From NCBI RefSeq assembly GCF_030816725.1, contig NZ_JAUSYG010000001.1:62001-126000 (forward strand): a DNA stretch of 64,000 nucleotides. Direction: 5' to 3'. The notes below the pieces were generated by a model. It ran no database searches. It was not told the DNA's origin and worked only from the letters and a program-made list of their open reading frames with translations. Positions 7,074-25,743 of the stretch are shown one piece after another. This DNA comes from Pseudarthrobacter defluvii. GTDB taxonomy: Bacteria; Actinomycetota; Actinomycetes; Actinomycetales; Micrococcaceae. A program made the position numbers and the translations under genes. Numbering within the stretch: position 1 is the first letter of the stretch; every line of letters starts with the position of its first letter.

Positions 7074-7796
7074 TCAGTCTTCCATTCCGGCAAGGGCGTC
7101 CCGGACGGTGGAGTCCAGGGCACGGCGCAGTGTCTTGACGCGGTAGTCGCTGGAGACGGAGGTGTAGAGGGCTGTTGTTGACGCGTGTTCGTGCCCGGCC
7201 TGGTGCTGAACGAACAAGGGGTCCATTCCTGATTCGATCAGGTGGGTGACGTAGGAGCGGCGCAGCGAGTGGATGTCCAATCCGGGGGAGAGGCCGAGGT
7301 CTTCGCAGTACCGGTTGAAGCGGCGGTTCAGGGCGGTTTCGGAGACAAGGGTGCCGCGTTCAGAGGGGAACAGGTCCAGACCATCAGTCATGTGTAGGTG
7401 TCCTCGTTCCAGCCAGTCATCGATGATCTCCGCCGACCAGTCGAAAACTGTCAGGACACTGCGGCGTTTCGGGGGAGAACCCCGCATTGCCTTCCCATAT
7501 CGGACCTGCAACGCCCCGTACTTGCCGAACTCCCGGGCGTGCGGGTTTCTGGAGAAATCCACTGTCTGCAGGTGCCTGACCTCGTTACGGCGCAGCCCCC
7601 AGCAGTAGGCCACCTTGAAGAGGACCGCGTCGCGGTAGGCCGGCAGCCAGCCCTTGCGGCCCAGGCCAGCGATGCGGTCCACCTCGTCATCGGCCCGGTC
7701 AAAGAACGCCTGCAGTTCCTGCCGGGTGAAGGGCCGCCGCTTAGGAGCCGATTCGGTCGCCTGGGCATGGACCGCGGTGTTCCAGTCGAAACAGAC
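7074..7796 (-). pseudogene. C-terminal catalytic part of a tyrosine recombinase, separated from its N terminus by an IS21 element
   Basis: About 240 residues carry a well-conserved tyrosine recombinase catalytic domain. Arg I lies in WGLRRNEV, the H-x-x-R motif in DIHSLRRSY, the second His in QAGHEHAST and the nucleophilic Tyr in ALYTS. The reading frame continues upstream into the insertion sequence, so any start there is artificial. Removing the IS and one target copy joins the N-terminal piece at 10387-10779 to this one in frame as THPAQVCFDWNT. The restored protein would be about 370 residues, a normal size. The catalytic residues are intact, so the insertion looks recent. Confidence 0.85.
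7790..7796. repeat. Target-site duplication of the IS21 element, left copy
   Basis: AACAGAC occurs here and at 10380-10386, directly flanking the insertion sequence. An A precedes both copies, so the duplication could be eight bases. Deleting one copy plus the element restores the recombinase frame. Confidence 0.88.
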
Positions 7797-7909
7797 TGAG
7801 TATTTGAAGGCTTGGAGGCCAGTCGATCTTGCCTTTGGGGGCCAGTGATATTGCCGGTGGGGGCCAGCGGCCGCGGGGATGGGGGCCACCGGCTCCCACC
7901 GACGTTTTC

Positions 7910-8656
7910 TTATTGCGTCATGGTGGCGTGTTCACGCATGTTGTGGTTGCCAGTATCGACCCAGATGGTGTTGTGCACGATGCGGTCCATGATCGCATCG
8001 GCGTGGACCCCGGAGCCGAGCCGCTGGTGCCAGTCCTTCTTGGCGTATTGCGTGCAGAACACGGTCGAAGCTGTGTCGTACCTGCGCTCGAGCAGTTCCA
8101 GCAGCATGCTGCGCATGCCCTCGTCGGGGTGGTCGAGGAGCCACTCGTCGATCACCAGCAAAGTGAAGGCCGCGTACTTCTTCAGGAACTTCGTGGCACC
8201 CAAGGGCTTGTCCTTCGCCAGCGCCCAGGCTTCCTCGAGGTCGGGCATTCGAACGTAGTGGGCCCGGATCCGGTGCAGACAGGCCTGCTTGGCCAGAGCG
8301 CACCCGAGGTAGGACTTCCCGGACCCGGTGAATCCCTGAAACACGACGTTCTGCTGCCGTTCAATGAACGAGCACGTGCCGAGCTGGGCGATCAGGCTCC
8401 GGTCGAGGCCGCGTTCGTCCACGAGGTCGAGCCGGCGCAGGTCCGCGCCCGGGTAGCGTAGCCCGGCCCGTCGGATCAGCCCCTCGACCTTGGCGTGATT
8501 GAACCCGGAGTGGGCCTCGTCCACGACCAGGCGGAGCCGTTCCTCGAAGGCCATGCCGAGTACGAGTGCCTCGTCCTGGGCCTCGAGCGCTTCGAGCATC
8601 GGGACGGCACCCATCTCACGGAGCTTGCGCTTGGTTTCAGTATCGATCCCGCTCAT
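7910..8656 (-). CDS. istB: IstB, IS21-family ATPase helper
   Basis: This 248-residue AAA+ ATPase acts with IstA in IS21 transposition and in target DNA remodelling. The Walker A motif is GFTGSGKSYLG at about residue 106-116, and the Walker B motif is LLVIDEW at about 168-174. The end of the protein carries the usual sensor and Arg-rich segments (LLELLERRYDTAS). Length is typical for IstB. Its start overlaps the end of istA by four bases (ATGA), the usual translational coupling in this family. Confidence 0.93.
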   Translation of the reverse strand: MSGIDTETKRKLREMGAVPMLEALEAQDEALVLGMAFEERLRLVVDEAHSGFNHAKVEGLIRRAGLRYPGADLRRLDLVDERGLDRSLIAQLGTCSFIERQQNVVFQGFTGSGKSYLGCALAKQACLHRIRAHYVRMPDLEEAWALAKDKPLGATKFLKKYAAFTLLVIDEWLLDHPDEGMRSMLLELLERRYDTASTVFCTQYAKKDWHQRLGSGVHADAIMDRIVHNTIWVDTGNHNMREHATMTQ

Positions 8657-10215
8657 TTGGCGCCACCTGCGTAGTACTCGGCGCCGCGCACGTAACCGCC
8701 GTGTTCGACTCCTTCATCCCGTGGAGGCCTGAGCCCGGCGGCTTTGTCCTGCTCCGTGGCAAGGATCGGCTGAAGATGGGCATACCGCGGGGACCGCACC
8801 CTGCCTGCCAACGCAAGCCGGCAGGCCGCCTCCACCCGTTCGGCCGAATAACGCCGGCAGAGCCGCAACACGGCCAATGCCGCGTCCAAGCCCTGCTCGT
8901 CGACCGGGACGGACTCGAAGATCCGGTTGACCACGGTCACCGCTGCCGGGCCGATCCGTCCGGCCCATTCCCGCGCCCGGGCCGGGTCCCACTGCCGGTA
9001 TTTCTCGCCGGCGGGAAGGTCCGCGTCATTGGTGCGATACTCGTTGGTCGCGCCCTCGGGCAGCAACAGATGGCTGGTCAGCCGTTCGCTGCCCCGGTAG
9101 GCCTGAAGCACCCGATCGGTGATCCTCAGGTCCACCGACGTGCCAACATGGGCGAACGGCACGGAGTAGTAGTTCCTTTCCCAGACCACGTGCCCGTTCC
9201 GGCCCACCCGGCGCCCGTAGGCCCACCTGCTGATCTCGTAGGCGGCCGCCGGCAACCCCGTGAGCAGCGGCTGCTCTTCAGCTGCGAACACGCTGGTCCT
9301 GGACCCTGGCCGTTTCTGGAACGGCTCCGCGTTATAGGCCGCTACCCGGTCGGTGATGGCGGCGCGAAGCTCCAGCAACGAGGTGAATTGCTGCTGGCGC
9401 AGCCCGGCGATGACCCAGGTAGCCACGTGGGCGACCGTGTTCTCCACGCTCGCCTTGTCCTTCGGTGCCCGGATGCGCCCCGGCAGCACCGCCGCTGAAT
9501 AGTGCGCCGCCATCTCCCGGTAAGCGTCGTTGAGCACGACTTCGCCTTCGCGGGGATGCTTGATCACGCCGGTCTTCAGATTGTCCGGCACGATCCGCGG
9601 CACCGAACCGCTAAAGGCCTCGAACATCGCCACATGGGCCCGCAACCAGGTGTCCTGTTTCATGTCCAGGGCGGGTTCAACGAACGCGTACCGGCTAAAC
9701 GGCAGGCAAGCCACAAACAAATACACCGTCCTCGACTTGCCCGTCACCGGATCTGTCAGCTGCATCGTCGGGCCCGACCAGTCCACCTCCACCGTCTGCG
9801 CCGCCTTGTGCCCGACCCGGGACGCCACCCCAGTGACCAGCACATGCCGCTGATAGGTCCTGCAGAACCGGTCATAACCCATCACCGGCTCACCGGCAGC
9901 CGCGCGTGAATCCGCGTACTCGCCATGCAGCAGCTTTAGCGTCACCCCGACCCGGGCCATCTCCCTATGCACCTGATCCCAGTCCGGCTGCGCGAACACA
10001 CTCTGATGCTCACCCCGCCCAGGAAACAGCCGGGCATAGACCTCGCCCTCTGAACTGTCGGCGATATCGTCCCACGCCACACCGGCCGCGTCAGCAGCCT
10101 CCAGCACCGCCGTGATGCTCTTACGGGACATGCCCTGCGACGCAGCGATCGCCCGGCCTGACAGGCCCTCGGCGCGCAGCTGCAACACGAGCTTCGCTCT
10201 GATCTTCCGTACCAT
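8653..10215 (-). CDS. istA: IstA, IS21-family DDE transposase
   Basis: This 520-residue transposase has an N-terminal helix-turn-helix (LSGRAIAASQGMSRKSI), a central RNase H-like integrase core and a C-terminal beta domain. The DDE residues are visible: Asp in TVEVDWSG, Asp in RIVPDNLKTGV and Glu in DKASVENTV. Length is normal for IstA. It is the first gene of the insertion sequence and overlaps istB by four bases. Nothing suggests inactivation. Confidence 0.93.
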   Translation of the reverse strand: MVRKIRAKLVLQLRAEGLSGRAIAASQGMSRKSITAVLEAADAAGVAWDDIADSSEGEVYARLFPGRGEHQSVFAQPDWDQVHREMARVGVTLKLLHGEYADSRAAAGEPVMGYDRFCRTYQRHVLVTGVASRVGHKAAQTVEVDWSGPTMQLTDPVTGKSRTVYLFVACLPFSRYAFVEPALDMKQDTWLRAHVAMFEAFSGSVPRIVPDNLKTGVIKHPREGEVVLNDAYREMAAHYSAAVLPGRIRAPKDKASVENTVAHVATWVIAGLRQQQFTSLLELRAAITDRVAAYNAEPFQKRPGSRTSVFAAEEQPLLTGLPAAAYEISRWAYGRRVGRNGHVVWERNYYSVPFAHVGTSVDLRITDRVLQAYRGSERLTSHLLLPEGATNEYRTNDADLPAGEKYRQWDPARAREWAGRIGPAAVTVVNRIFESVPVDEQGLDAALAVLRLCRRYSAERVEAACRLALAGRVRSPRYAHLQPILATEQDKAAGLRPPRDEGVEHGGYVRGAEYYAGGAK

Positions 10216-10379
10216 TGATGATTACTCCTTCTGCCGTGCGCCCTATACACACGACGGAAGGAGCCTAAATCGGGGTGGCCCCCAAACACGCCACTACCGG
10301 CACCCAGGACCGCTACTGCGCGCTCTGGCCGTTGGCCCCCGAACACACGACGGATGGACCCCAAAAGCGCGGATATTCA

Positions 10380-10386
10380 AACAGAC
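10380..10386. repeat. Target-site duplication of the IS21 element, right copy
   Basis: Second copy of AACAGAC, matching 7790-7796. It lies at the end of the N-terminal coding piece of the interrupted tyrosine recombinase. Confidence 0.88.
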
Positions 10387-10779
10387 CTGAGCAGGGTGCG
10401 TACCGAAGTACTGTTCGCAGACCCGGTCCCAGCCATACTCAGGCGACGCTGCGTAGGCGCAGAACGCCCTCAGCGCTGCCTGGTAGCTCCGGATGGTGGA
10501 CTGCGCGACGTGCTTCACGCTGCGCAGATCCCCGAAGAACTCGTCCACGTGGGCCGGCGTCCACTGCCATGGATACTCATTCGTGAACTCCTGGAACCGC
10601 GTCACCAGCCGTTCCCGGCCCTCGATGGTGCCAAACGACAGGTTCCGGCTCAACTGCTGGTTGCGCCAGCCGGTAAGCATCTGGGTGAACACGTGGTCCT
10701 CGGGGTGAAGGTAACGCACAGCGCCGAAGTCGAGCACCCGTCCCGCTGAATCGACCGCCACGAAAACCTCCCGATACAT
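10387..10779 (-). pseudogene. N-terminal part of the tyrosine recombinase interrupted by IS21
   Basis: About 130 residues from MYREVFVAVDSAGR to GTHPAQ form the core-binding domain of a site-specific recombinase. The block ERLVTRFQEF and the helix QSTIRSYQAALRAFCAY are typical of the SAM-like DNA-binding fold of integrases. The frame continues into the insertion and is cut off there. Joined across the IS it meets the catalytic piece at 7074-7796 in the same frame. I chose the ATG at 10779 over one at 10851 because the intervening 24 residues look non-coding; no clear ribosome binding site decides it. Confidence 0.8.
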
Positions 10780-11025
10780 TGCATTGGATGCAAGAATCAT
10801 GCAATTAATGCAGAACCGGCGCAAATCTGCGGATCCGAGGGCCATTTCCAACTTGATGCACTCCAGCTTACGAAGGCCGCTTGGTGGACTTACCAGGGGC
10901 CCGACCGGCCGACTGCACGGTGTTTCCGCAAGTCACAGGCACTTTTCTGGTTCAAGTCGCGGGATGCCGCTTGGCAATGGGCGGAGGAGGGGTGATCGTG
11001 CATCGGATGCAATAATCACTATTCA

Positions 11026-11165: not shown

Positions 11166-11402
11166 CTAACGTCGTCTCCGTGATGCCCACCGGACCTGAC
11201 GGACCTCGTCTAGTAGGTCAGCGATGGCAGACTCGAAAACGGCGTCATCGGTGTGGGACAGTTTCTTCGACCCAAAAACTGATTCCCCTCCCGAACTGAT
11301 TTCGATGTCCGAGTCAGAGCTGAGGTCTGAAAGCCGTGTTTGTCCTATAACAACGCTGGGCCTCGTTGAACCGGTTCTTCGATGCTCGTGAATCAAGCTC
11401 AT
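11166..11402 (-). CDS. Small Ser/Asp-rich protein paired with the membrane protein
   Basis: This 78-residue protein is of unrecognised family. The middle is rich in Ser, Asp and Glu (SDLSSDSDIEISSGGES), and the C terminus has a short amphipathic helix (DAVFESAIADLLDEVRQVRW) ending in a run of Arg. It has no signal peptide or membrane segment. Its ATG overlaps the stop of the upstream membrane-protein gene (ATGA), so the two are probably made together and may work together. A strong terminator follows. Confidence 0.6.
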   Translation of the reverse strand: MSLIHEHRRTGSTRPSVVIGQTRLSDLSSDSDIEISSGGESVFGSKKLSHTDDAVFESAIADLLDEVRQVRWASRRRR

Positions 11403-12760
11403 TTGAGCCTCCCTTCGATGCTGGAAGAATAGTCTGGACCTACGACTTTCTTGTAGCTAGAAAACACTATTGAAGCATGGATTGCCATCCATGCGGTGGC
11501 GCCATAGATGATGAACCACGAACCCCACCATATCCAGGGAGAGACGGGTACAGCAGCCAGGACCGCCATAGTCAGCAAGATGCCTCCGCTGGCCAGAAGT
11601 ATGCCGCGCAGTGGCGCAAGAAGACGAGCGACGAGTTCGTGCTCCGGTTCCTTGCTCATCCATGATAACAAGAGCGCCGGAGTGACAAGGATGATCGAGG
11701 CTGCAGGCGAGGGAATCAGGGCCTCGGGGCGGAGTACTTCGTTGTTCCATATTCGAACTGGAATTGTAGCCAGAACGATGAAGGTAGTTATGACGGCAGC
11801 CCACTTAGAAAAGGAGAAGACCCCTTGCCTCGCTGGAGCGGCTGCCACCCAAGCATCCGCAGTGTGAAATACGGACTTAGGCGCCAAGACCTCGTGGGCC
11901 GTTCGAGTCGGACTAGTGACAGAATGCCCAGACGATTGGATGGCCAGTAGCTTCCGATCAAAGGCCACGAAGTCGATCGACTGAATACACAAACCCTTCG
12001 GGACCTCGAACTCAACGTGCTGGCTTGCTGCGAACCCATAGTCAGGGATCGAGAGCTTGAAACGAATCTGTTGCGGTCCCCGATCTTCCAACTCCGGAAG
12101 GTCTTCATCGAGGGAGTACTTCAACGTCGTCCGAGTACCAACCAAGTCGGCATCAAGTTCGACCAAGAAGAGGTAATTCTTAGCCAATCGAGCCACAAGC
12201 ATGTCCAGCAGTAAGAGTCTTCGTTTGTGGCTCTCGGTGAAATTTCGGCTGTCTAGCGACGATGCTTTCCAGTCTTCATATGCGTCCACTTTGGTTGAGG
12301 AATCAGCAGCATCAGACTCCACTACAGCAGCGAAAACCGTGCCGTCGTCGGGTTCATTCGCGGAGGAGAGGCGCGGCAAGTTGCGCGCAGCGTCATGCAA
12401 CATTTTGATAGCCAACCTAGAATTGTCCACCCGACCAAGTACGGCGACGCCTTTGCCGTCGTGCTTTGCATCCAAGCGTTGCTTAGCGCCCTTTACCAGC
12501 ATCCCGAGCGGCACTACGACTCTATTCTTGGAGCTGGCGGGTATGGCCATGTCTTCTGGAACCGTTATGTCTACGGACGTACTCTGTCGAGTCGTACCTT
12601 CAGCGTCGAGGCGGAGGGCAGTGACGCGACGGTGCACCCACTTCCTCGAAGTTGCCAAGAGTGCAAGTAGCTGCAGGCCCGAAAGGTCATCAGTTGCCGC
12701 TTGGTTAGAAATGCCAGGGACCCTTACCCGCCCCATCCACTTAGGGATCCGCTTAGCCAT
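11399..12760 (-). CDS. Unknown protein with a soluble N-terminal half and four C-terminal transmembrane segments
   Basis: I do not recognise this 453-residue protein. The first 300 residues are soluble, with a mixed N-terminal region and a probable beta-rich domain (QIRFKLSIPDYGFAASQHVEFEVP). Four hydrophobic segments follow near the C terminus, around WAAVITTFIVLATIPV, ASIILVTPALLLSW, GILLASGGILLTMAVLAAV and WFIIYGATAWMAIHASIV. I chose ATG at 12760, with a GGAAGG about ten bases upstream; a GTG at 12793 would add 11 residues. It is co-transcribed with the small gene at 11166. Codon use is poorer in G/C third positions than in core genes. Its position next to a resolvase fragment and a SIR2-STAND gene suggests a passenger, possibly defence-related, but that is only context. 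Confidence 0.6.
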   Translation of the reverse strand: MAKRIPKWMGRVRVPGISNQAATDDLSGLQLLALLATSRKWVHRRVTALRLDAEGTTRQSTSVDITVPEDMAIPASSKNRVVVPLGMLVKGAKQRLDAKHDGKGVAVLGRVDNSRLAIKMLHDAARNLPRLSSANEPDDGTVFAAVVESDAADSSTKVDAYEDWKASSLDSRNFTESHKRRLLLLDMLVARLAKNYLFLVELDADLVGTRTTLKYSLDEDLPELEDRGPQQIRFKLSIPDYGFAASQHVEFEVPKGLCIQSIDFVAFDRKLLAIQSSGHSVTSPTRTAHEVLAPKSVFHTADAWVAAAPARQGVFSFSKWAAVITTFIVLATIPVRIWNNEVLRPEALIPSPAASIILVTPALLLSWMSKEPEHELVARLLAPLRGILLASGGILLTMAVLAAVPVSPWIWWGSWFIIYGATAWMAIHASIVFSSYKKVVGPDYSSSIEGRLK

Positions 12761-12886
12761 CCGTCCAGCCTTCCACAACTTACGGTTTGACACTAAAGGG
12801 TTACTTGAAGTTCGAGGTGTGGCTGCAAGCGGGCACGTGCAGATGAATCCTCCAATTGCATCCCCGTTTCACGTTTCTGTGTGCAA

Positions 12887-13279: not shown

Positions 13280-16200
13280 CTATTCCAGCATCGGTCTTGC
13301 CTTGGATGCTCGCATGGCCCGCTGTTGAGATTTTTTAGATTTGAGCACTTGCTCAATCCTGGCCACACTGACCTTCCGATGAGATTCGTCCCTGAATCTA
13401 TAACTGGCCACTGACAATTCCGCAATATAGCGAGCCAAAGCATTCTCATCGGCAGCGGGCATTGACGCCTCAAAGAATTGATACGAACAAAAGTCGTGAA
13501 AGAACCCGGCAATGACCTCAAGCGTAACGTGCTCTTCGGTGATGCCGCTAAGCTTGCTCGCCCAACCTTCTTCATGGATGTCAAGAACCATGAAAGCTGC
13601 AGAAATAGCGCCTTCTCCATCAGTTGCAAAGGCTTTATCATCAATAGCTTTATCCAGCGCCTTTAATAGCTTCCTCGAAGAGAGAGAGGCCGAAATCCCC
13701 GACATGGTGAAGATGGCCGGGAACATCTCCGCTGCACGATCGATGAACTCCTGCCGCCGATCCTCCTGGATCTCCAAAGCGTGAGCAGTTGTTTCGGCTA
13801 CCTTCCGTAGGGCCTCGGTGAGATCGGGGTCATCAGAGAACATCGCAAAGAAGCGGCCCCAACCGGTTAGAACCTTCCGAAGAAGCCGGGACTTAAGAGC
13901 CGGGTCTGGGACCTGGTCACAGTCGCGTAGAACTGTAGAAACAACGTCTACAACAATTGAGTACCTGTACGCTGCGGGAAGATTTTCGGGTACTGTCAGC
14001 GGGAAGGCTTCTGCTTCCTGGTAGGGCACAAGGTGGTCTTCGGGAAGCTGCACATCGTCGTCCTCCGAGACCGTGTCGTCGTCCGGGTCGTCGTCTCCGT
14101 ACTCAGCGAGCTCATACTCATCATCAAAATCCTCGGGTGCTTCGACAAGTTCCACTTTGCGAAGCGGACTTCTTTCTTCGGCGAGGATGTGGGATGCCTC
14201 CAGGTAGGCTTCCATTCGTACCAGCAGGTCGGTGTCTTGCCTCTTCAGCGAGGCATAGTGCCGAATAATCGGTGCAAAAAGCGTTGGATCCGTGAGAATT
14301 GTCTGACGGAATTCGGCATCTTCAGCAGCTGCCTTGGCGGCAAAGAGATATAGATAGCTGTGATGGCTGAATCGAACAAGATTCCGGTCGGATCTGAGGA
14401 CGCGTTGAGCACGGAAGTATTCAAGAATTTCTAAGGCAGACTCGGAAATATCGCGTTTTTCAAAATAAGTCTCCACCCTGGACGTCACTACCGATCCGGG
14501 AAGCGAACCGGCCCTTTGCTCAACGAACAACATTGCCAAATCTGCCAATACTGCTTCGCGAAGACCCGAGTCAATCGACCAGCGCGCATCTTCATCCACG
14601 TTGCCGCGGCCCAAGAGCTGGCTCAGGTACTGGTCCAAGAGGGTGGTGGGAGAACTGTTCGCCGCTATGGAGGTTCCCGCAAGAAGTATCGAAGCTAGAA
14701 GAGAGACGATGAATGGTGTTCTCGGAAGGTTTTGCTGATTCAGCACAGACATCACTCGGGTAGCGACGGACTCTGGCCGAACTGGCGTAGCCAAGCGGAC
14801 AAGCTTGACTACATCCTGCGTGTTGAAGGGACCGACGTACCGTACCTCCGGCGTGAGGTTAGCTGCGAGTAGCCTCTCCACTAGTTCGGCTTCATTTTCT
14901 GTCCGGCAGCCTATGAACACTTGGCGAAGGTTCAGACTAAGCAGATCCGCGATCATCTGGTCACAAAGGCGTCCAGCGTAAGGAGTTACGTTGTCGATGG
15001 CAATGACCGAATCTGGTACGTCATTTCTGTTGGCCGGAAGAATGCCAAGGGATCTTCCTTCGGCCCTAAGTTGAACTAGCAAGGGCTTGCCGCCTTTGGT
15101 GAACCTGTTGAAGTCAACGAGGATTGGCGGCTTTCCAGAGGCCGCTGCTGCCTCCGACAGGATCCATTGGAGGGCGGTAGTTAGGCCTGAGTTTTCGTCT
15201 CCTACAATCACTGTCACCCCGTTATATCGACTGATCTCATGAGGATCAGAACGGGTGACCTTCTTCTGGTCGCTCATCTGTTCTGCCGCTTGTATACGGT
15301 CGCTTGCAACCGGGAAAAGAACGGGCGGGATCAATAGTTCGTCCACTCTCCTGGCATCTCGATCAGGAGTGTTTTCGCAAACTATGGATTGCATTCTGAC
15401 CCGGTCAGCTAAGGCATCAACCGCCAGCTGCACGGGGCTAAGCAAAAGTCCCGTTTCTGACAGAACTACATGATTTTCCGGGCGAGGGGACAACGAGCCC
15501 AAGAACGCCGGAAAATCTGAGTACTGCTCCCCGTAAACGACGGGCCGGATGTGATCCGAACGGTGCTCTGCTTGGAGAGCCTCGAGCTCAGAAGTTCTGC
15601 AAAGCCGGAAATGCTGGAGATCGGAATTTTTGAAGGTCGATCGATGCCATTCGATCAATCGGCTGAAGTTTGGATCAGTTAATCCGGAGCCTACGCCGAC
15701 ATAAACGATAGATTTCAAGGCAGAAGCAGCCCTTTGAAGCTCTTGGGCACTACTGCTGCTGAGCAGACGAGTGTAGTCAGCATGACTGAAAACTATGGAA
15801 TCTGGTTCTTCCCAGTATCCGTGAAGGTGGCCGATCTTAGTCGAATTATTGGCGAGCATCTTTTGGATTTCCGCACTATTTTCCCACGTGACAGTTTCCC
15901 GACCGGTAGCTCGCTCTATCAAGGAATCGTAGTTGGTCGTCAGAATAGGACTTCCAACACTCGTCAGAGCACGGGGCCAGCTGTCATCGACTAGCGGTAG
16001 TTTACCGATAGTCTCTGACAGCCAGTTGTTTGGTGCCATTCCGCCAGCTTCTGCAATTTTATGTTGTATGAGTCCGGCAACTGATATCAAGGCATCCGTG
16101 TCGTTGTTGTTATCGGCATACTCGAAGGTTGAGTTAATCATGCTGTACCACGCGTCCGGTGCCATCTGTCGAGCTCGCATGTAGCTCAGACTTTCAGCTA

Positions 16201-16351
16201 TAAACCCGTTCCAACTTGCACAGGTAGCCCGGTCGGCAGCAGAAATAGACAAGCCGGTCCCTACTATGAAAATGCAGCGGCCTTTGGCGATTGCCTCTTG
16301 TAACTCTTCCAAACCGGGTCCTTCGCTTCTCCATTGCCAGCCAAATAGCAT
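13280..16351 (-). CDS. SIR2-STAND-type protein, candidate anti-phage NADase
   Basis: This 1023-residue protein has an N-terminal SIR2 domain (about 1-290): IFIVGTGLSIS at 27-37, TTNYD at 138-142, HLHGY with the expected catalytic His177, and YVGVGSGLTDPNFSRLI. A P-loop-NTPase-like region begins near 375-395, where VIVGDENSGLTTAL aligns with a Walker A motif but has Leu in place of the invariant Lys. An AVIDN-like Walker B equivalent reads VIAIDNV. A long helical C-terminal half follows, interrupted by an acidic stretch near 737-770 (EYGDDDPDDDTVSEDDD). SIR2-STAND proteins sense phage components and deplete NAD. The architecture fits, but phage defence here is inference. It is a single gene with AT-richer composition and an IS5 element about 180 bases upstream, which could affect its promoter. 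Confidence 0.8.
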   Translation of the reverse strand: MLFGWQWRSEGPGLEELQEAIAKGRCIFIVGTGLSISAADRATCASWNGFIAESLSYMRARQMAPDAWYSMINSTFEYADNNNDTDALISVAGLIQHKIAEAGGMAPNNWLSETIGKLPLVDDSWPRALTSVGSPILTTNYDSLIERATGRETVTWENSAEIQKMLANNSTKIGHLHGYWEEPDSIVFSHADYTRLLSSSSAQELQRAASALKSIVYVGVGSGLTDPNFSRLIEWHRSTFKNSDLQHFRLCRTSELEALQAEHRSDHIRPVVYGEQYSDFPAFLGSLSPRPENHVVLSETGLLLSPVQLAVDALADRVRMQSIVCENTPDRDARRVDELLIPPVLFPVASDRIQAAEQMSDQKKVTRSDPHEISRYNGVTVIVGDENSGLTTALQWILSEAAAASGKPPILVDFNRFTKGGKPLLVQLRAEGRSLGILPANRNDVPDSVIAIDNVTPYAGRLCDQMIADLLSLNLRQVFIGCRTENEAELVERLLAANLTPEVRYVGPFNTQDVVKLVRLATPVRPESVATRVMSVLNQQNLPRTPFIVSLLASILLAGTSIAANSSPTTLLDQYLSQLLGRGNVDEDARWSIDSGLREAVLADLAMLFVEQRAGSLPGSVVTSRVETYFEKRDISESALEILEYFRAQRVLRSDRNLVRFSHHSYLYLFAAKAAAEDAEFRQTILTDPTLFAPIIRHYASLKRQDTDLLVRMEAYLEASHILAEERSPLRKVELVEAPEDFDDEYELAEYGDDDPDDDTVSEDDDVQLPEDHLVPYQEAEAFPLTVPENLPAAYRYSIVVDVVSTVLRDCDQVPDPALKSRLLRKVLTGWGRFFAMFSDDPDLTEALRKVAETTAHALEIQEDRRQEFIDRAAEMFPAIFTMSGISASLSSRKLLKALDKAIDDKAFATDGEGAISAAFMVLDIHEEGWASKLSGITEEHVTLEVIAGFFHDFCSYQFFEASMPAADENALARYIAELSVASYRFRDESHRKVSVARIEQVLKSKKSQQRAMRASKARPMLE

Positions 16352-16524
16352 GGCAACCTCCAGCCCCTATTGTTGCAGCGAAAGGCGGAGGCTTTGACTT
16401 TCAAGGACTCGTGTCTTGGATGCTGTTTCTCTGGTGCACCCATCAGACGGAGGACACCGTTGATCTAAGTCCCAACCTGTTCCGGTTTCTAGTCCCGACG
16501 GCTAACGTTAGCGTGCTAGGTTCG

Positions 16525-17109
16525 CTAGGGCGTGTCTCCTAAAGCTGTCAGCCAGATGCTGATCGCGCGGAGGACTGCTCCGCCGCGGTAGGTGAGGGCC
16601 AGTTTGTCGTAGCGGGTCGCCAGGGCCCGCCACTGCTTGAAGATGTTGAAGTTGCGTTCGACGACGTTGCGGCCTTTGTAGTCCTCCTTGTCGAAGGCCG
16701 GGGGTCGGCCGCCGGTGGATCCGCGTCGTTTCCGGTGGCCGATCTGGTCGGATGGTTGCGGGATAACAGCGGCGATGCCGCGGTCGCGAAGGTGGGTCCT
16801 GATCGCTCTGGACGAGTATGCCTTGTCACCGCGAACACGGTCCGGGCGGGTGCGCGGCCTGCCCGGACCCGTCCGGTTGATCTTCAACTGGTTCATCAAA
16901 TGAGTGAACATGGGCGCATCCCCGCCCTGGCCGGGGGCAACGAGCAGCACCAGGGGTCTGCCTTTACCATCGACCAAGGCGTGGATCTTGGTGCTTAATC
17001 CGCCGCGGGAACGCCCAATCGCGTGATCGGTGGGCTCAGCAAACAGATTCATGTAATTCGAGCAGGCCCCCTGTGGTGCGCGGAAGGTTGGTGCCGTGCT
17101 GGTGGGCAC
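16525..17109 (-). CDS. IS5-family transposase, downstream frame (OrfB)
   Basis: This frame carries the catalytic core of the transposase: the block GLSTKIHALVDGKGRPL, Asp in VRGDKAYSS, and Glu in GRNVVERNFNIFKQWRALATRYDK. Real homology starts around residue 20 (NLFAEPTDHAIGRSRGG). The preceding residues overlap the upstream frame, and the full enzyme is expected from a programmed frameshift near 17050-17090. The stop codon TAG is completed by the flanking target sequence, with CTA at 16525-16527 read on the minus strand. Confidence 0.85.
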   Translation of the reverse strand: MPTSTAPTFRAPQGACSNYMNLFAEPTDHAIGRSRGGLSTKIHALVDGKGRPLVLLVAPGQGGDAPMFTHLMNQLKINRTGPGRPRTRPDRVRGDKAYSSRAIRTHLRDRGIAAVIPQPSDQIGHRKRRGSTGGRPPAFDKEDYKGRNVVERNFNIFKQWRALATRYDKLALTYRGGAVLRAISIWLTALGDTP

Positions 17110-17469
17110 GATTCACCGTCGAGTCCACTGAAACCGACCAATCCACCTCACCGCGGGCATCCGCGGTCGTCAGCAGGGCCGCCAGGATCCTGTCCCAGGT
17201 CCCGTCACCGCTATAGCGGCGGTGACGCTTCCAGATGGTCTGCCAGGGACCAAACTCCGCCGGCACATCCCGCCAGGCGATCCCGCACCGATACCGGTAG
17301 ATGATGCCCTCGACTACACGGCGATCATCCCGGAAAGGACGACCCCGGCGGCCAACAGAAGACGGCAGCAACGACTGAATCCGGGCCCACTGCCCGTCAG
17401 TCAAAACAGAAGTACGAGACACACATCAAGCATCCCGGGTAAGAGGTTCCGGATTTAGGAGACACGCCC
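16528..17469 (-). mobile_element. IS5-family (IS427-group-like) insertion sequence
   Basis: A 942-bp element with perfect 16-bp terminal inverted repeats (GGGCGTGTCTCCTAAA on the left and its complement on the right). It is flanked by TA on each side (16526-16527 and 17470-17471), the usual target duplication of this group. It encodes a two-frame transposase on the minus strand. It sits just upstream of the SIR2-STAND gene in the same orientation. Confidence 0.92.
17036..17422 (-). CDS. IS5-family transposase, upstream frame (OrfA)
   Basis: This 128-residue frame has the N-terminal IS5 domain: LTDGQWARIQSLLP, then RRVVEGIIYRYRCGIAWRDV and GPWQTIWKRHRRYSGDGTWD. The first catalytic Asp lies in SVDSTVNRAHQHG. 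The frame ends soon after, and the rest of the enzyme is encoded in the next frame (16525-17109), the usual two-frame arrangement of this IS group. The start follows the inverted repeat by about 30 bases. Confidence 0.85.
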   Translation of the reverse strand: MSRTSVLTDGQWARIQSLLPSSVGRRGRPFRDDRRVVEGIIYRYRCGIAWRDVPAEFGPWQTIWKRHRRYSGDGTWDRILAALLTTADARGEVDWSVSVDSTVNRAHQHGTNLPRTTGGLLELHESVC

Positions 17470-17654
17470 TAGCCCGTCAGCGGGCCGTATCTCCTATGCC
17501 ACAAGGCGGACGATACTGCCGTATCAGGCCCTCGAGCAACCAAAGCCTGACGCGAAAGCCTCAATGTGTGAAGTTCAACTGCCAGGGGACATGGCAAGAG
17601 AGCTGCGCATAAACCCCTACCGACGCAGTCGGCCTTCCCAACCGAGCTGGGCTG

Positions 17655-17788: not shown

Positions 17789-20700
17789 ATGCCTCGTTTC
17801 GCACTGGACATCGAGTCCGTCCCCCGCCCCGCCCGCGCCCAGGCACTCCTGGACGCCGTTAACCACAGCGTGGTCATCGCCGACGGCGCCATGGGCACCA
17901 TGCTGCAGGGCCGCGACCTCCAGCTGGACACGGACTTCCAGAACCTTGAGGGCTGCAACGAGATCCTCAACGACACCCGCCCGGACGTCATCGCAGACAT
18001 CCACGACGCCTACTTCGCCACCGGCATCGATGCCGTCGAAACCAACACGTTCGGCGCCAACTGGTCCAACCTCTCCGACTATGGCATCGACGACCGAATT
18101 GGGGAGCTCGCCCGCAAAGGCGCCAGAATCGCCCGCGAACGTGCCGAGGCTGCAGAGGAAACAGACGGCCGCATGCGCTGGGTCCTCGGCTCCATGGGCC
18201 CCGGCACCAAGCTCCCCAGCCTGGGCCACACCAGCTACGACTGGCTCAAGCAGACCTTCGCTCTCCAGGCAGAAGGCCTCATCGACGGCGGCGCGGACGC
18301 GTTCCTCATCGAAACCAGCCAGGACCTCCTGCAGACCAAGGCCGCGGTCAACGGTTGCAAGCAGGCCATCGTCTCCAAAGGCATCCGCCTGCCCATTTTC
18401 GTCGAGGTGACGGTCGAAACCACAGGAACCATGCTCATGGGCTCCGAAATCGGCGCCGCGCTCACCGCCCTGGAACCGCTCGGCGTCGACGCCATCGGCC
18501 TGAACTGCGCTACCGGCCCGGACGAGATGAGCGAGCACCTCCGCCACCTCTCCAAGCAGTCCTCCGTCGCCATCGCCTGCATGCCCAATGCCGGCCTGCC
18601 CGTCCTTGGCGCCAACGGCGCGCACTACCCGCTGTCACCCGCCGAACTCGCCACCGCGCACGAACAGTTCGTCCGCGAATTCGGCGTGGGCCTGGTGGGC
18701 GGCTGCTGCGGTACGACGCCGGAACACATGGCCGCCGTCGTCGAACGTCTGGCTCCCTTCCGCAACAAAGCCGTGGCCACCGAAGATAAAACAGCGCCGG
18801 CGAGGATCCCCGAAGAACGCGAAGCCGGCGTCGCCTCCCTCTACCAGCACGTGAACTTCGACCAGGAGTCCGCCTACCTGGCCATCGGTGAGCGCACCAA
18901 CGCCAACGGCTCCAAGGCCTTCCGCCAGGCCATGCTCGAAGAACGCTGGGACGACTGCGTAGACATCGCCCGCGAACAGATCCGCGTCGGCGCCCACCTC
19001 TTGGACGTCTGCGTGGACTACGTGGGGCGCGACGGCGTGGCCGACGTCAAGGAGATCGTCTCCCGGTTCGCGTCCGCCTCCACCCTCCCGCTGGTCATCG
19101 ACTCCACCGAACCTCCCGTGCTGCAGGCCGGCCTGGAACTCATCGGCGGCCGCCCGGTGGTCAACTCGGTCAACTACGAGGACGGCGACGGCCCCAACAG
19201 CCGCTTCGCCCGCATTATGCCGCTGGTCAAGGAACACGGCACCGCCGTGATCGCCCTGACCATCGACGAACAGGGCCAGGCCCGGACCACCGAGGGCAAG
19301 GTGGCCATCGCCTCCCGCCTGGTCGACTCCCTGGTGGGCGAGTGGGGCATGCGCGTCGAGGACATCATCGTGGACTGCCTCACCTTCCCCGTCGCCACCG
19401 GCCAGGAGGAAACCCGCCGGGACGGCATCGAAACCATCGAGGCCATCCGCCAGATCACCGCGAAGTACCCGGGCATCAACACCACCCTCGGCGTCTCCAA
19501 CGTCTCCTTCGGCCTCAACCCGGCTGCGCGCATCGTCCTGAACTCCGTGTTCCTGCACGAAGCCGTCCAGGCCGGTCTGACGAGCGGCATCATTGACGCC
19601 GCCAAGATCGTCCCGCTCGCCTCGCTCCCGGAGGAGCAGCGCAAGGTGGCCCTGGATCTGGTCTGGGACCGCCGCGAATACGACGCCGACGGCAACACCA
19701 CCTACGATCCCCTGGCCCGCATGCTGGACATGTTCGCCGGCGTCGACACCGCAGCGCTCAAGGACCAGCGCGCCGCCGAACTCGCCGCCCTCCCCACGGG
19801 CGCCCGCCTGGAACGGCGCATCATCGACGGCGAAGGCAAGGGCCTCGAAGCAGACCTGGACCTGGCCCGCAGTGAAGGCATGACCCCGCTGGGCATCATC
19901 AACGACCACCTGCTCGAAGGCATGAAGGTGGTGGGCGAGCGCTTCGGCGCCGGCGAGATGCAGTTGCCGTTCGTGCTGCAGTCCGCCGAGGTGATGAAGA
20001 ATGCCGTCGCCCTGCTCGAGCCGCACATGGAGAAGTCGGACTCCTCCGGCAAGGGCACCATGGTGATCGCCACCGTGCGCGGCGACGTGCACGACATCGG
20101 CAAGAACCTGGTGGACATCATCCTCACCAACAACGGCTACAAGGTCATCAACATCGGCATCAAGCAGGGCATCGCAGAGATCATGGCCGCGGCGGAGGAA
20201 CACAACGCGGACGTGATCGGCATGTCCGGGCTGCTGGTGAAGTCCACCGTGGTGATGAAGGAGAACCTCGCCGAGCTGCAGTCCCGCGGCCTGGCCAAGA
20301 AGTGGCCCGTGATCCTCGGCGGCGCAGCCCTCACCCGCGCCTACGTGGAGCAGGACCTGGCCGAGCAGTTCGACGGCGTGGTCCGGTACGCCAAGGACGC
20401 CTTCGAGGGCCTTGCCCTCATGGAACCGCTGGTCCGCGTGGCCCGCGGTGAATCACCGGACGACGTCGGCCTGCCGCCGTTGAAGAAGCGCATCCACAAG
20501 GGCGGGGCAAAGTTCACCGTGACCGAGCCGGAAGCCATGCCCGGCCGCTCCGACGTCGCCAGCGACAATCCCCTGCCGGTGCCGCCGTTCTGGGGCACGC
20601 GCATCGTCCGCGGCGTTTCGCTCCACGACTACTCCGCGTTCCTCGACGAGCGCGCCACCTTCATGGGGCAGTGGGGCCTCAAGCCCGGCCGCGGCGAGGA

Positions 20701-21433
20701 CGGCGCCTCCTACGAGGAACTCGTGGAACGCGAAGGCCGGCCGCGCCTGCGCTACTGGCTGGACCGCATCCTGGGCGAGGGGATGCTGGACGCGTCCGTT
20801 GCCTACGGCTACTTCCCGGTGGTTTCCGAGGGGGAACAGGTGGTGGTGCTGCACCACGGTGAGGATCCCGACGGCGTCCTGGGCCAGGCAGGTCTGCTCG
20901 CCCCGGATGGTGGGTCAGGCGGCCCGATCGGCACCGACCGCCTGCGGTTCGATTTCCCGCGCCAGCGCCGTGACCGGCACCTCTGCCTGGCCGACTTCGT
21001 GAAGTCCCGCGAATCAGGGCAGATCGACGTACTGCCGGTGCAGCTGGTCACCGCCGGCTCCAAGATCGAAGAGTTCACGTCCAAGATGTTCGCGGCCAAC
21101 CAGTACCGCGACTACTACGAGCTCAACGGCCTGGTCATGCAGCTTACCGAGGCGCTGGCCGAGTTCTGGCACGCCCGGATCCGCAAGGAGCTCGGCTTCG
21201 CGGCCGAGGAGCCCAAGGACAAGGCCGGACTGTTCAAGCTCGACTACCGCGGCGCGCGCTTCTCGCTGGGCTACCCCGCCTGCCCGGACATGGAGGACCG
21301 CCGCAAGGTGACCGAGCTGCTGAAGCCCGAGCGCATGGGCGTCATCCTGAGCGACGAGCTCATGCTGCACCCCGAACAGTCCACCGACGCGTTCGTGTTC
21401 CACCACCCGGAGGCGAAGTACTTCAAGGTGTGA
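17789..21433 (+). CDS. metH: Cobalamin-dependent methionine synthase
   Basis: This 1214-residue cytoplasmic enzyme transfers a methyl group from methyl-tetrahydrofolate to homocysteine via cobalamin. The homocysteine domain (about 20-325) has IADGAMGTM and the zinc cysteines in GLNCATGP and GGCCGTTPEH. The folate domain (about 350-630) has AIGERTNANGSKAF. The cap and B12 domains (about 660-900) carry the cobalamin-ligand motif DVHDIGKNLV near residue 768. The C-terminal activation domain (about 930-1214) contains NQYRDYYELNG. All modules are present and the length is normal. It is monocistronic. The ECF transporter about 900 bases downstream on the other strand could supply the cofactor, but that link is only inference. 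The upstream region holds a dif-like site but no riboswitch I could see. Confidence 0.96.
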   Translation: MPRFALDIESVPRPARAQALLDAVNHSVVIADGAMGTMLQGRDLQLDTDFQNLEGCNEILNDTRPDVIADIHDAYFATGIDAVETNTFGANWSNLSDYGIDDRIGELARKGARIARERAEAAEETDGRMRWVLGSMGPGTKLPSLGHTSYDWLKQTFALQAEGLIDGGADAFLIETSQDLLQTKAAVNGCKQAIVSKGIRLPIFVEVTVETTGTMLMGSEIGAALTALEPLGVDAIGLNCATGPDEMSEHLRHLSKQSSVAIACMPNAGLPVLGANGAHYPLSPAELATAHEQFVREFGVGLVGGCCGTTPEHMAAVVERLAPFRNKAVATEDKTAPARIPEEREAGVASLYQHVNFDQESAYLAIGERTNANGSKAFRQAMLEERWDDCVDIAREQIRVGAHLLDVCVDYVGRDGVADVKEIVSRFASASTLPLVIDSTEPPVLQAGLELIGGRPVVNSVNYEDGDGPNSRFARIMPLVKEHGTAVIALTIDEQGQARTTEGKVAIASRLVDSLVGEWGMRVEDIIVDCLTFPVATGQEETRRDGIETIEAIRQITAKYPGINTTLGVSNVSFGLNPAARIVLNSVFLHEAVQAGLTSGIIDAAKIVPLASLPEEQRKVALDLVWDRREYDADGNTTYDPLARMLDMFAGVDTAALKDQRAAELAALPTGARLERRIIDGEGKGLEADLDLARSEGMTPLGIINDHLLEGMKVVGERFGAGEMQLPFVLQSAEVMKNAVALLEPHMEKSDSSGKGTMVIATVRGDVHDIGKNLVDIILTNNGYKVINIGIKQGIAEIMAAAEEHNADVIGMSGLLVKSTVVMKENLAELQSRGLAKKWPVILGGAALTRAYVEQDLAEQFDGVVRYAKDAFEGLALMEPLVRVARGESPDDVGLPPLKKRIHKGGAKFTVTEPEAMPGRSDVASDNPLPVPPFWGTRIVRGVSLHDYSAFLDERATFMGQWGLKPGRGEDGASYEELVEREGRPRLRYWLDRILGEGMLDASVAYGYFPVVSEGEQVVVLHHGEDPDGVLGQAGLLAPDGGSGGPIGTDRLRFDFPRQRRDRHLCLADFVKSRESGQIDVLPVQLVTAGSKIEEFTSKMFAANQYRDYYELNGLVMQLTEALAEFWHARIRKELGFAAEEPKDKAGLFKLDYRGARFSLGYPACPDMEDRRKVTELLKPERMGVILSDELMLHPEQSTDAFVFHHPEAKYFKV

Positions 21434-22318: not shown

Positions 22319-25174
22319 TCAAACCCTGAGTTGTAGCCGGTCCCGGGCCTGAGCGGAGCGCGCCTGCCCGTCGGGGCCGGGAACGCTGCCGGACACCGGC
22401 TTCACCCGCCGCAGCGAGGCGAGCACTGCCCGGCCCACCACGGCGATCCCGATCACCGTGGTGACGGCGCGCAGGGTGTCCCAGCCCGCCGTCGACGTCA
22501 ACAGCGAATACAGCAGGAAGCTGCTGAGGTTGGTGCCCAGAGGCGCGCCCGGAACGTAGGAGATTCCGGTGCCGCCCCCCACCGCGAAGGGCCAGAACCA
22601 GAGGTTCAGCAGCAGCCCGAACACATAGGACGCCACCACGCCATAGGCCGCCAGCATCCACAGTTCGGCCCTGCCGCGCACCCGGCGGGGGAGCAACCCG
22701 GCTCCCGCGCCCACCCACGCGCAGGCGAAGACCTGGAACGGCGTCCACGGCCCGATCCCGCCCCACAGTGCACCGGAGACGGCAATCGTGGCGGCACCGA
22801 GCAGCAGGCCGAACCGGGCACCGAACGCGCGGCCCGCCAGGATCAGCAGGATAAACACCGCCTCCACGCCGCCGACGCCGGTGCTCGCCACCCGCACGGC
22901 GGAACCGACGGCAGCCAGCACGCCGAGCAGCGCCACCGTGTGTGCCGAGCGGACGGACCCGTCCAGGGAAAGCACGACGGCGACCGCGGCCACGGGTGCG
23001 ATGGCCAGGGCCGCGTACGGGGTAGCGGCGGCAGCGTCCTGGGGGAGTGCCGCGGCAAGCAGGGGCCAGCAGAACGCCGCCAGGGCGGCCAGGTTGGCGG
23101 CAGCCAGGACAGCAAGCTCGGCGCCCCGCGGCGTCCGGACCCGGTGGGGTCTATGGGTGGCCGGTACGTCTGCCTGTTCAGCGGGTGACGTCCCCGCCTG
23201 CGCTCCGGCAAGAGCGGGCCCGGATGTTTGGATGCGGGGTGCCGGGACGTACGGTTCCGGGTCAGGCGCAGGTTCCAGGGATGGTGCCACGCCGTTCCGC
23301 ATCGGAAGGATCCGGGCGCCCAGGCCGTGGGCGAAGTCGATGTCGTGCGTGGCAATCAGGACCGCGGCGCCGTCATCCGCCGCCATGCGCAGGGCCGCCG
23401 CCACCGCTGCGCGTGCGGCCGGATCGAGCCCGCGGGTGGGTTCGTCAATCAGCAGCACCCCGGGGCTGTCCATCGTCTGCAGAGTGATGGCCAGGATTCT
23501 GCGCTCGCCGGCGGAGAGGTCTCGTGGATGCTCGTTCCCGATGGGAATGTGGACGTCTCCCCGCAGCCGGGTAAGGCGGGCCGCCGCAACTGCCGTGCTG
23601 TTCTTCCTGCGTGCCAGCCGCCGCTCCGCCGACCGCAGCTCTCCCGCGACCGTGTCCCTGGTGAAAAGGTCGTCCGAGGCGTCCGGCACCAGGGCGACCC
23701 TGCCGCCGTCGTCCATTTCCAAGCGGCGCGTTCCCTCAGCGCCCGTACCTTCGTCGAGGGCCAGCGCCACCAGCAGGGAAGACTTTCCGGCCCCGTTAGG
23801 CCCCACCAACGCCACGATCTCGCCGCGGTGCAGGGCCAGGGAGGCGTCGCGGACCAGCGGCGTGCCCTTCCGTTGCACCTCGAGGTGGGTTGCCGTCAGC
23901 ACGGGGGCACGGCCGTGATCCGGACCGGGTAGTGTCCGGGCAACGGCCGGAGCGGAGGGGGAGGGAGCGGTGCCCGGCACCAGCGCGCCGCCCTCGATGG
24001 TCCACCAGGAGTCAGCCACCGGAACCAGGGCCGCAGCCCGGTGTTCGGCCACAATGACGCACACGCCGTGTTCGCGGGCCAGGGTGCTGAGCACGGTGAT
24101 GACGCGGCTGCGTGCCGTGGCGTCGAGGTCGGCCAGGGGCTCGTCCACCAGCAGCAGCCGGGGCTGGTCCACGACGGCGGCGGCGATGGCCACGAGCGTT
24201 GCCTCACCTGCCGAGAGGGTGCTGACGTCCCGGTCCAGCAGCGCGGAAACCCCGACCCGATCCGCCACTTCCAGTACCCGGGCCTTCGCGGCGGCGGACG
24301 GCACGCCACGGAGTTCGAGGGCCAGGGCGATGTCATCCCGGACCCGGGTGGTCGCAAAGGCGGCGCGCGGATTCTGGAGGACGACGCCCACCAACCCCGC
24401 GTTATCGCGCGGCGGGGCGCCGGCGCGGTCAGTTCGGGCAACCTGCACGGTACCGGACAGCTCGCCGCCGTCCACATGGGAAAGGAGGCCTGCGAGGCCG
24501 CGCAGGATGGTGGACTTGCCGGAGCCCGTGGGCCCGGTGATCACCGCAACGGACCCGGCCGGCGCTGCAAACGAATCAACCCTGATGCATGTGTCAGCGA
24601 TGCGGAACTGCGCGTCCCGCACCAGAAGAGGCGCGCCGTCGTCGTGACGTCCTTCGCAGGACGCGCGGCTGCCGAAGCCGCGCAGCTCCAAGGCTGCAGC
24701 AATGCGGGCGGCGTGCTCCAGGGTCCGTTCGAGCACGGGGACCAGGGCGCGCGGGCCGAAGCGTTCGCCGCGGAGCCGGAAGGCCAGGCGAACGGAGGCC
24801 ACGGCGTCGGACAGCGCGGGGAGCGCCGCCCACGCCACCACCAGCATGCGGGCCACGCCCTGCAGCGGGCCGCCGCGGGCCAGGCGGACAAAGCCGCGGG
24901 ACACATCCACCCAGGAATTGAGTAGGCCGAAGCCGAGGATGGTCGCGGCGATTGGCAGCGCGGACAGCACCGCCGTCCACAGCCCCGGGGCCGTGATCGG
25001 GCCCAGGAACACCACATGGGCGTACGGGGCGGGAAGCCGCAGCGGCGGCAGGTCCAGCAGGACCGGGGTGCCAGTGGCCACCCCGTTGAAAAGGACCCGG
25101 TAGGCGACCCGCGCCGCGATGAACACAGCAGCGAGAACCGCCGCTGCGCGCAACGGCGCGGGCCGGAAGGTCAT
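22319..25174 (-). CDS. Single-chain ECF transporter: EcfT, two ATPase domains and S component fused
   Basis: This 951-residue protein is a complete vitamin-type importer in one chain. Residues 1-200 form the membrane T component (LRAAAVLAAVFIAARVAYRV, then AVLSALPIAATILGFGLL). The first ABC ATPase (about 205-420) has GPTGSGKST, LSAGEATLVAIAAAVV and LLLVDEPLADLD. The second (about 440-660) has VGPNGAGKSSLL, LSAGERRILAITLQ and LLIDEPTRGLD. Residues about 690-930 form a multi-span S component with GGIGPWTPFQVFACAWVGAG. The start at 25174 overlaps the stop of the lipoprotein gene (ATGA), so the two are coupled. The substrate is not shown by sequence. Cobalamin is suggested by the DUF4430-like partner and nearby metH, but thiamine-type or other vitamins are possible. 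Confidence 0.85.
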   Translation of the reverse strand: MTFRPAPLRAAAVLAAVFIAARVAYRVLFNGVATGTPVLLDLPPLRLPAPYAHVVFLGPITAPGLWTAVLSALPIAATILGFGLLNSWVDVSRGFVRLARGGPLQGVARMLVVAWAALPALSDAVASVRLAFRLRGERFGPRALVPVLERTLEHAARIAAALELRGFGSRASCEGRHDDGAPLLVRDAQFRIADTCIRVDSFAAPAGSVAVITGPTGSGKSTILRGLAGLLSHVDGGELSGTVQVARTDRAGAPPRDNAGLVGVVLQNPRAAFATTRVRDDIALALELRGVPSAAAKARVLEVADRVGVSALLDRDVSTLSAGEATLVAIAAAVVDQPRLLLVDEPLADLDATARSRVITVLSTLAREHGVCVIVAEHRAAALVPVADSWWTIEGGALVPGTAPSPSAPAVARTLPGPDHGRAPVLTATHLEVQRKGTPLVRDASLALHRGEIVALVGPNGAGKSSLLVALALDEGTGAEGTRRLEMDDGGRVALVPDASDDLFTRDTVAGELRSAERRLARRKNSTAVAAARLTRLRGDVHIPIGNEHPRDLSAGERRILAITLQTMDSPGVLLIDEPTRGLDPAARAAVAAALRMAADDGAAVLIATHDIDFAHGLGARILPMRNGVAPSLEPAPDPEPYVPAPRIQTSGPALAGAQAGTSPAEQADVPATHRPHRVRTPRGAELAVLAAANLAALAAFCWPLLAAALPQDAAAATPYAALAIAPVAAVAVVLSLDGSVRSAHTVALLGVLAAVGSAVRVASTGVGGVEAVFILLILAGRAFGARFGLLLGAATIAVSGALWGGIGPWTPFQVFACAWVGAGAGLLPRRVRGRAELWMLAAYGVVASYVFGLLLNLWFWPFAVGGGTGISYVPGAPLGTNLSSFLLYSLLTSTAGWDTLRAVTTVIGIAVVGRAVLASLRRVKPVSGSVPGPDGQARSAQARDRLQLRV

Positions 25175-25743
25175 GACGCGGGTGCCGCCGGAGCGCCGTC
25201 CACCTGGAAGAGCAGTTCCAGGCTCTCGCCGGGCTTGACCTGCTGGGTTGCCGCGCCTTCCTGTGCGTAAGCCCAGTCGCCGGAGGCAGGCTTGACCCAC
25301 AGCGACCAGTACGCGAACGCCGCGGGCATGCCCTTGCACTCTTCGCGGTAAGTGCCGTCCTTGTGCTTGATGTCGAAGTCGGCGGCGGGCACACCGTTCA
25401 CCCGGCAGACGAGTTCATTGGGGTACTGCGTGGTGCCCTCGGTCTTGACCTTGGCCTCTTCGAGGACCTTTGCGGCCACGGTGGGCCCGTCCACGGACAC
25501 GCAGGTGGAGGTGTCGGCGGCGGACTGCTTCAGGGCGCCGGAATCGACGATGACCTTCACGCCCGCGCAGGGGCCGTCAGAGGTTGAAGCGGCGCTGGCG
25601 CTCGACGAAGCAGCTGCAGATGAGGCAGGGGCCGAGGAGCTTGGCTGGGTGGAGGCCGGCGTGGAACAGGCGGCGAGGGTAAGCAGGAGGCCTGCGGCGG
25701 CGAGGGAGCCCGCGGACGCGGTGCGGAGTTTAGTCAATGTCAC
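25171..25743 (-). CDS. Secreted lipoprotein with DUF4430-like domain
   Basis: This 190-residue protein has a lipoprotein signal peptide (hydrophobic LAAAGLLLTLAACS, with Cys26 as the lipidated residue). A Ser/Ala/Pro-rich linker (about 27-55) and a C-terminal domain of about 130 residues follow. That domain contains LVCRVNGVPAADFD and YREECKGMPAAFAYWSLWVK, which resembles DUF4430/transcobalamin-C-terminal-like domains. It would be anchored on the outer face of the membrane. It precedes and overlaps the ECF transporter gene by four bases, so it may feed substrate to that importer. The domain assignment is from remembered similarity and is moderately sure. Confidence 0.7.
   Translation of the reverse strand: MTLTKLRTASAGSLAAAGLLLTLAACSTPASTQPSSSAPASSAAASSSASAASTSDGPCAGVKVIVDSGALKQSAADTSTCVSVDGPTVAAKVLEEAKVKTEGTTQYPNELVCRVNGVPAADFDIKHKDGTYREECKGMPAAFAYWSLWVKPASGDWAYAQEGAATQQVKPGESLELLFQVDGAPAAPAS

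Follow-up and report, generated by a model that had tools for sequence, protein, structure and literature searches.

A SIR2-STAND protein from Pseudarthrobacter defluvii lacks the Walker A lysine, as does its clade, and shares its switch module with the DS-8/PDC-S60 family

Immune proteins of the STAND and NLR kinds are commonly regarded as switches operated by nucleotide. Published accounts of the bacterial systems Avs5 (PMC12931631) and DS-8 (PMC13092281) report as essential either the P-loop or a residue likely to act in ATP hydrolysis, and the latter describes DS-8 as protective against phage. For PaAvs5-1, Walker A residues Gly362 and Lys363 are reported to be needed for immunity, while the Walker B substitution Glu410Gln still protects, which the authors interpret in terms of binding, not hydrolysis (PMC12931631). 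SAMD9 proteins, described as present in actinomycetes too, carry a P-loop of the form GGT/S, for which their authors propose either binding without hydrolysis or compensation by an upstream His (PMC5445408).

We analysed a 64,000-nucleotide stretch of DNA from the soil bacterium P. defluvii, referred to here as the window, in which a reverse-strand gene encodes a protein with the SIR2-STAND domain order of Avs5. Its features are as follows, with fractions referring to the set of 66 SIR2-STAND proteins defined below:

13280..16351, reverse strand: SIR2-STAND gene, 1023 residues from ATG, with 58 database proteins at E <= 0.001
15470..16312, reverse strand: SIR2 NADase-type domain, residues 14-294 (PF13289)
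14180..15451, reverse strand: STAND/NACHT-like NOD, about residues 301-724
15176..15202, reverse strand: P-loop GDENSGLTT, residues 384-392
15182-15184, reverse strand: codon CTA for Leu390
14990..15007, reverse strand: Walker B-like strand VIAIDN, residues 449-454 (Asp453 in 66/66)
14903..14905, reverse strand: Arg483, sensor-1-like position (Arg or Lys in 55/66)
14714..14728, reverse strand: LPRTP, GxP-like, residues 542-546 (Leu542 in 66/66, Pro546 in 65/66)
14339..14476, reverse strand: winged-helix part of the NOD, residues 626-671 (PF24406 nSTAND_NTPase4, E 5.1e-05)
14003..14149, reverse strand: acidic linker, residues 735-783 (22 of 49 residues Asp or Glu, no Lys or Arg)
13286..13984, reverse strand: C-terminal helical region, putative sensor, residues 790-1022, homologous to DS-8/PDC-S60 proteins

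Arg483 and LPRTP occupy what we take to be the sensor-1 and GxP positions, placed by motif order rather than by residue-level structural alignment. The PF24406 match to the winged-helix part scores 23.7 bits, under the cut-off of 27. Structure prediction without ligand gave a NOD fold, with a P-loop NTPase core and a winged helix, in region 300-720, and fold comparison of the C-terminal region (790-1022) gave no clear known fold. We prefer the 1023-residue form of the protein to the 953-residue database gene call at this locus (P0001), because the NAD-binding motif would lose Gly31 and Gly33 in the shorter call, two residues kept in 60/60 proteins with letters there. A Shine-Dalgarno-like GGAGG lies at 16361-16357, five bases 5' of the ATG.

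The SIR2 domain contains the motifs GTGLS, TTNYD, LHGY and VGSGLTDPN, and Asn140, Asp142, His177 and Gly178 are present in 66/66 SIR2-STAND proteins, which bears out a preliminary description of this DNA that the NAD-binding and catalytic motifs are kept. Catalytic-type residues are thus intact, and, judging from these residues and from homologues, the domain would hydrolyse NAD+ on activation. Sequence matches to Thoeris ThsA, DSR1/DSR2 and human FAM118B are limited to the N-terminal SIR2 part.

The same description had noted Leu in place of the invariant P-loop lysine, and GDENSGLTT is indeed read at residues 384-392. Alignment of the window protein with P0002-P0051 (A1, 51 rows) has Leu in 41 rows, Val in 7, Arg in 3 and Lys in none at position 390. 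With P0059-P0068 and proteins from loci L004, L029, L085, L086 and L124 added, the set comes to 66 SIR2-STAND proteins, the window protein counted, with Leu in 53, Val in 9, Arg in 3, Ile in 1 and Lys in 0/66; the searches scored candidates sharing short words (7994, 7994 and 7997 candidates), and Lys-bearing SIR2 members could lie beyond their reach. Left out before counting were P0001, which is the shorter database call for the window gene itself, P0069 and P0070, a pair of short proteins sharing a contig, and P0052-P0058, whose kinship hardly extends past the SIR2 part (query coverage 42% for P0056 and 24-27% for the rest); among these last seven, six show an ordinary GKS P-loop (P0052, P0054-P0058) and P0053 shows none. 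The Walker A pattern GxxxxGK[ST] is therefore absent throughout the set, and the remainder of the site is strongly conserved in a changed form. Gly389, Thr/Ser391 and the Walker B acidic residue of STAND/NACHT NTPases, Asp453, are each found in 66/66 proteins, as is Leu542, with Pro546 in 65/66, Trp396 in 64/66 and Arg or Lys at 483 in 55/66. Position 390 is hydrophobic in 63/66, and an acidic pair occupies 385 and 386 in 54/66. The residue after Asp453 is Asn in 39 and Asp in 27, so that the second acidic residue usual in Walker B is often gone too, and winged-helix position 663 is Arg in 26, Gln in 20 and His in 15. With Lys found in none of the 66, its absence is inherited rather than a local mutation, and it holds across NODs of the Lys-less clade that diverge down to about 21% identity. 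Neither of the two outcomes that the preliminary description named as refuting its proposed subclass has occurred: an NTPase fold is predicted in this region, and the Leu is common to a large clade instead of being a lone change among Lys-bearing homologues. The loss of hydrolysis that it raised as a possibility is consistent with these data.

That description had also singled out an acidic insert. The run is real, with 22 Asp/Glu in 735-783 and 18 in the 30 residues 737-766, but the claim that it is unusual for the family is not supported: across the 63 of 66 SIR2-STAND rows with 15 or more residues there, the linker is 19-89 residues long with a median net charge of -12, and the window protein has the lowest charge, -22. 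Residues 752-776 have pLDDT < 50 in the predicted model. The acidic run marks the far end of a trait common to the family, a variable linker that is acidic and predicted to be disordered.

A search against PADLOC matched PDC-S60 to the NOD at 356-711 (E 8.8e-11). By following this profile we reached metallophosphatase-NOD proteins, of which six sampled relatives outside the Lys-less clade have Lys in four cases, Arg in one and Ser in one at the Walker A position, with P-loops GVKEAGKT (Klebsiella grimontii plasmid), GNRESGKT (Sphingomonas), SPQEYGRT (Sinorhizobium meliloti), APMDAGST (Paracoccus), GNKESGKT (Bizionia) and GNENFGKT (Paenisporosarcina). The Paenisporosarcina protein is DS-8 by NCBIfam NF053861 (1101 bits, cut-off 790), and the other five score 120-190 bits, under that cut-off. 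Profile comparison of A1 with these six proteins by hhalign gave a probability of 99.9 and an E of 4.3e-33, and the printed alignment spans the NOD and linker and runs into the C-terminal region, where an eight-row alignment with DS-8/PDC-S60 proteins shows a common but weak pattern. Furthermore, a protein of genome G681 (loci L087/L131; same class as the window) joins a metallophosphatase N-terminus (PF00149, E 4.4e-12) to a NOD with the Lys-less P-loop GEASSGLTS, and matches PDC-S60 at E 1.3e-67. Together, the profile match through the NOD into the C-terminal region and this Lys-less metallophosphatase protein show that NOD and C-terminus form one module joined to different effectors. In the window protein, this module is a Lys-less sister of that of DS-8/PDC-S60, with SIR2 replacing the metallophosphatase, and the Lys-less NOD serves both effectors. 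New here is the finding that both regions, NOD and C-terminal, are homologous to those of DS-8/PDC-S60, an anti-phage family of metallophosphatase-NACHT proteins.

The Arg or Ser at the Walker A lysine position belongs to the metallophosphatase-NOD proteins at L126:2932-6156 and L128:2914-6072 and possibly reflects a change separate from that of the Lys-less clade. A related NOD with the P-loop GESGSGKR and a sub-threshold Mrr_cat match at the N-terminus is encoded on a Deinococcus plasmid (L148:1811-4297), adjoining an IS21-type pair.

In a maximum-likelihood tree of 75 NODs with a midpoint root, the 67 Lys-less rows (66 SIR2 proteins and L087) are separated from all the others by a branch with support 100/100; those others are six Lys rows, the Arg row and the Ser row. 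This split stays when the P-loop columns and four long-branch rows are removed (66 versus 5 rows, support 100). The fewest Lys/not-Lys changes on the tree number two, which would most simply be a basal loss for the clade plus a separate one in the Sinorhizobium/Paracoccus pair. A single loss for the whole clade is the simplest reading suggested by the tree, short of proof because several rows have long branches, no more than eight stand outside the clade and the root is a midpoint. L087 may lie either inside or beside the SIR2 rows (p-AU 0.469).

The SIR2-STAND gene sits in a low-GC island with transposases (GC 0.525, versus 0.672 in the window from 17.8 kb on). An IS4/5-type element at 16524-17473, with perfect 20-base inverted repeats at 16524-16543 and 17454-17473 and a transposase that domain matches place in two overlapping ORFs, ends 172 bases upstream of the start codon and could influence the promoter. 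An IS21-type istA/istB pair (7910-10215, reverse strand) is flanked by a tyrosine-recombinase catalytic part (7074-7889, reverse strand) and a SAM-like N-terminal part (10294-10851, reverse strand), as if the element lay inside an integrase gene. The island is bordered by metH, encoding cobalamin-dependent methionine synthase (17789-21433, forward strand); a metH 70% identical to it (L132:12089-15691, reverse strand) adjoins the SIR2-STAND gene of genome G436 on the opposite side, an arrangement that may be coincidental or may mark a hotspot for insertion. A 464-residue ORF (11399-12793, reverse strand), which lies downstream of the SIR2-STAND gene in the same orientation, matched nothing in PADLOC, Pfam, NCBIfam or PHROGs and may not be a gene. 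No cluster of validated defence genes was found nearby, the sole close PADLOC candidate being PDC-S56, split over two frames (1643-2059, forward strand, profile 4-111; 2029-3597, forward strand, profile 128-643). A 1006-residue protein with two ABC-type ATPase stretches is encoded at 22319-25339 (reverse strand), and its PADLOC matches look like generic ATPase matches.

Comparison of 873 ORFs of at least 80 residues, taken from the first 24 kb of the window and from twelve further gene neighbourhoods, showed no partner gene recurring beside the relatives; the recurring items are members of the family, metH in the window and at L132, recombinases and transposases common to the window and L125, L127 and L148, and stray frames. 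At L133 the gap to a 750-residue ORF is 34 bases, and the short intergenic gaps there make an operon possible at that locus. The family is sporadic: within the genus, 2/101 genomes have any match, namely the window's own and one SIR2-only match, and within the order 3/396 genomes, own included, have one at E <= 1e-30.

We consider the protein to be, with somewhat better than even probability, a single-gene abortive-infection NADase whose Lys-less NOD acts as a binding-only or structural switch without hydrolysis. According to this model, the C-terminal helical region would recognise a phage product, upon which the STAND NOD, by analogy with homologues, would open and assemble; the SIR2 domains brought together by assembly would then, given their conserved residues and homologues, destroy NAD+ and stop the infected cell. 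A NOD that switches by binding or structure, with no nucleotide hydrolysis, is the form suggested by a site that keeps Gly and Thr/Ser in the P-loop, Asp in Walker B, a sensor-1-like Arg/Lys and a GxP-like Pro but has no Lys. The protection given by DS-8 itself, the absence of a recurring partner gene beside the relatives examined and the low-GC island with transposases also favour the overall model. Against it stand the Arg found at position 390 in three clade proteins, the enrichment of basic residues in the clade, which could compensate for the lysine, and the lack of a cluster of validated defence genes near the gene. These same kept residues (with Arg/Lys483 and Pro546 among them) would also suit a NOD that still hydrolyses nucleotide, another basic residue of the same chain or a neighbouring subunit replacing the lysine, and several basic residues are enriched in the Lys-less rows relative to the six Lys rows: Arg367 (50/67 versus 0/6), Arg/Lys483 (55/67 versus 2/6), Arg/Lys508 (57/67 versus 0/6), Arg/Lys544 (61/67 versus 2/6) and Arg/Lys650 (55/65 versus 1/6). 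However, none of these is both exclusive and fixed, the window protein itself having Pro508, and the acidic residues at both 385 and 386 in 54/66, together with Asn454 in 39/66, make hydrolysis rather unlikely. That the NOD is instead nucleotide-free, its P-loop structural only and the switch driven by ligand binding and contacts alone, is an unlikely alternative that draws on the lost lysine, the acidic pair 385/386 (54/66), the hydrophobic residue at 390 (63/66) and Trp396 (64/66), a Trp missing from the six Lys rows; yet the strict conservation of Gly389, Thr/Ser391 and Asp453 is easier to account for if the protein uses a phosphate and Mg site.

Two further readings concern the gene rather than its NOD. 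The position among transposases and broken mobile genes might suggest a decaying gene or a sequencing slip in one copy, but the ORF is intact, the SIR2 residues are invariant, and an 87% identical Paenarthrobacter ureafaciens protein and other relatives are also without Lys; with Lys in 0/66 SIR2-STAND proteins, this reading is refuted and retains a negligible probability. A role other than anti-phage defence, as some other NAD+-consuming or signalling STAND protein, we regard as improbable: the residue pattern gives only the likely chemistry and no phage challenge is known for the Lys-less clade, but the NOD-sensor module is kin to DS-8, the SIR2 domain is kin to ThsA and DSR2, and presence is sporadic (3/396 genomes of the order at E <= 1e-30). 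A broader and more tentative proposal, which we hold as a possibility with the balance against it, is that the clade comprises bacterial NLR-like receptors with a nucleotide-independent NOD, in which Lys was lost once, the P-loop became acidic and hydrophobic (Asp/Glu385-386, Leu390, Trp396) and the module passed between the unrelated effectors SIR2 and metallophosphatase, the sister DS-8 staying dependent on its NTPase site.

To judge from the sequence pattern, the immune sensors of this bacterial branch are probably activated in an unusual manner, and the occurrence of the same module with and without Lys, on two effectors, makes a direct test of the role of the lysine possible. A Lys-less member that works would show that an NLR-like protein of bacteria can do without hydrolysis, or even without nucleotide, and would serve as a simple model for SAMD9, which likewise has no Lys in its P-loop.

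Compared with DS-8 (NF053861)/PDC-S60, the window protein has a homologous NOD and C-terminal region but no Walker A Lys, and its N-terminus is SIR2 in place of the DS-8 metallophosphatase domain; NF053861 gives 25.1 bits over 530-679 only, below the cut-off of 790. Avs5 has the same domain order, but PaAvs5-1 has Walker A GPAGSGKT and NG in its SIR2 domain, whereas the window protein has GDENSGLTT and HG; the Avs5 match is structural only, and the PADLOC families at E <= 0.01 include no Avs5 model, of which the library may hold none. The SAMD9 family, as here, has a STAND-like NTPase behind a SIR2-like domain and no Lys in its P-loop, and so sets a precedent for a SIR2-STAND-like architecture without the lysine. 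SAMD9 has Gly at the Lys position, and in place of its GGT/S P-loop the present clade has Leu, Val, Arg or Ile at position 390. SAMD9 also carries AlbA_2, a TPR array and an OB fold; in the window protein these three have no Pfam match at E <= 1, and fold comparison of its C-terminus favoured no known fold clearly. The Lys-less clade is thus a bacterial case with Leu or Val at this position, apparently with other domains than those of SAMD9 and with a Lys-bearing sister for side-by-side comparison.
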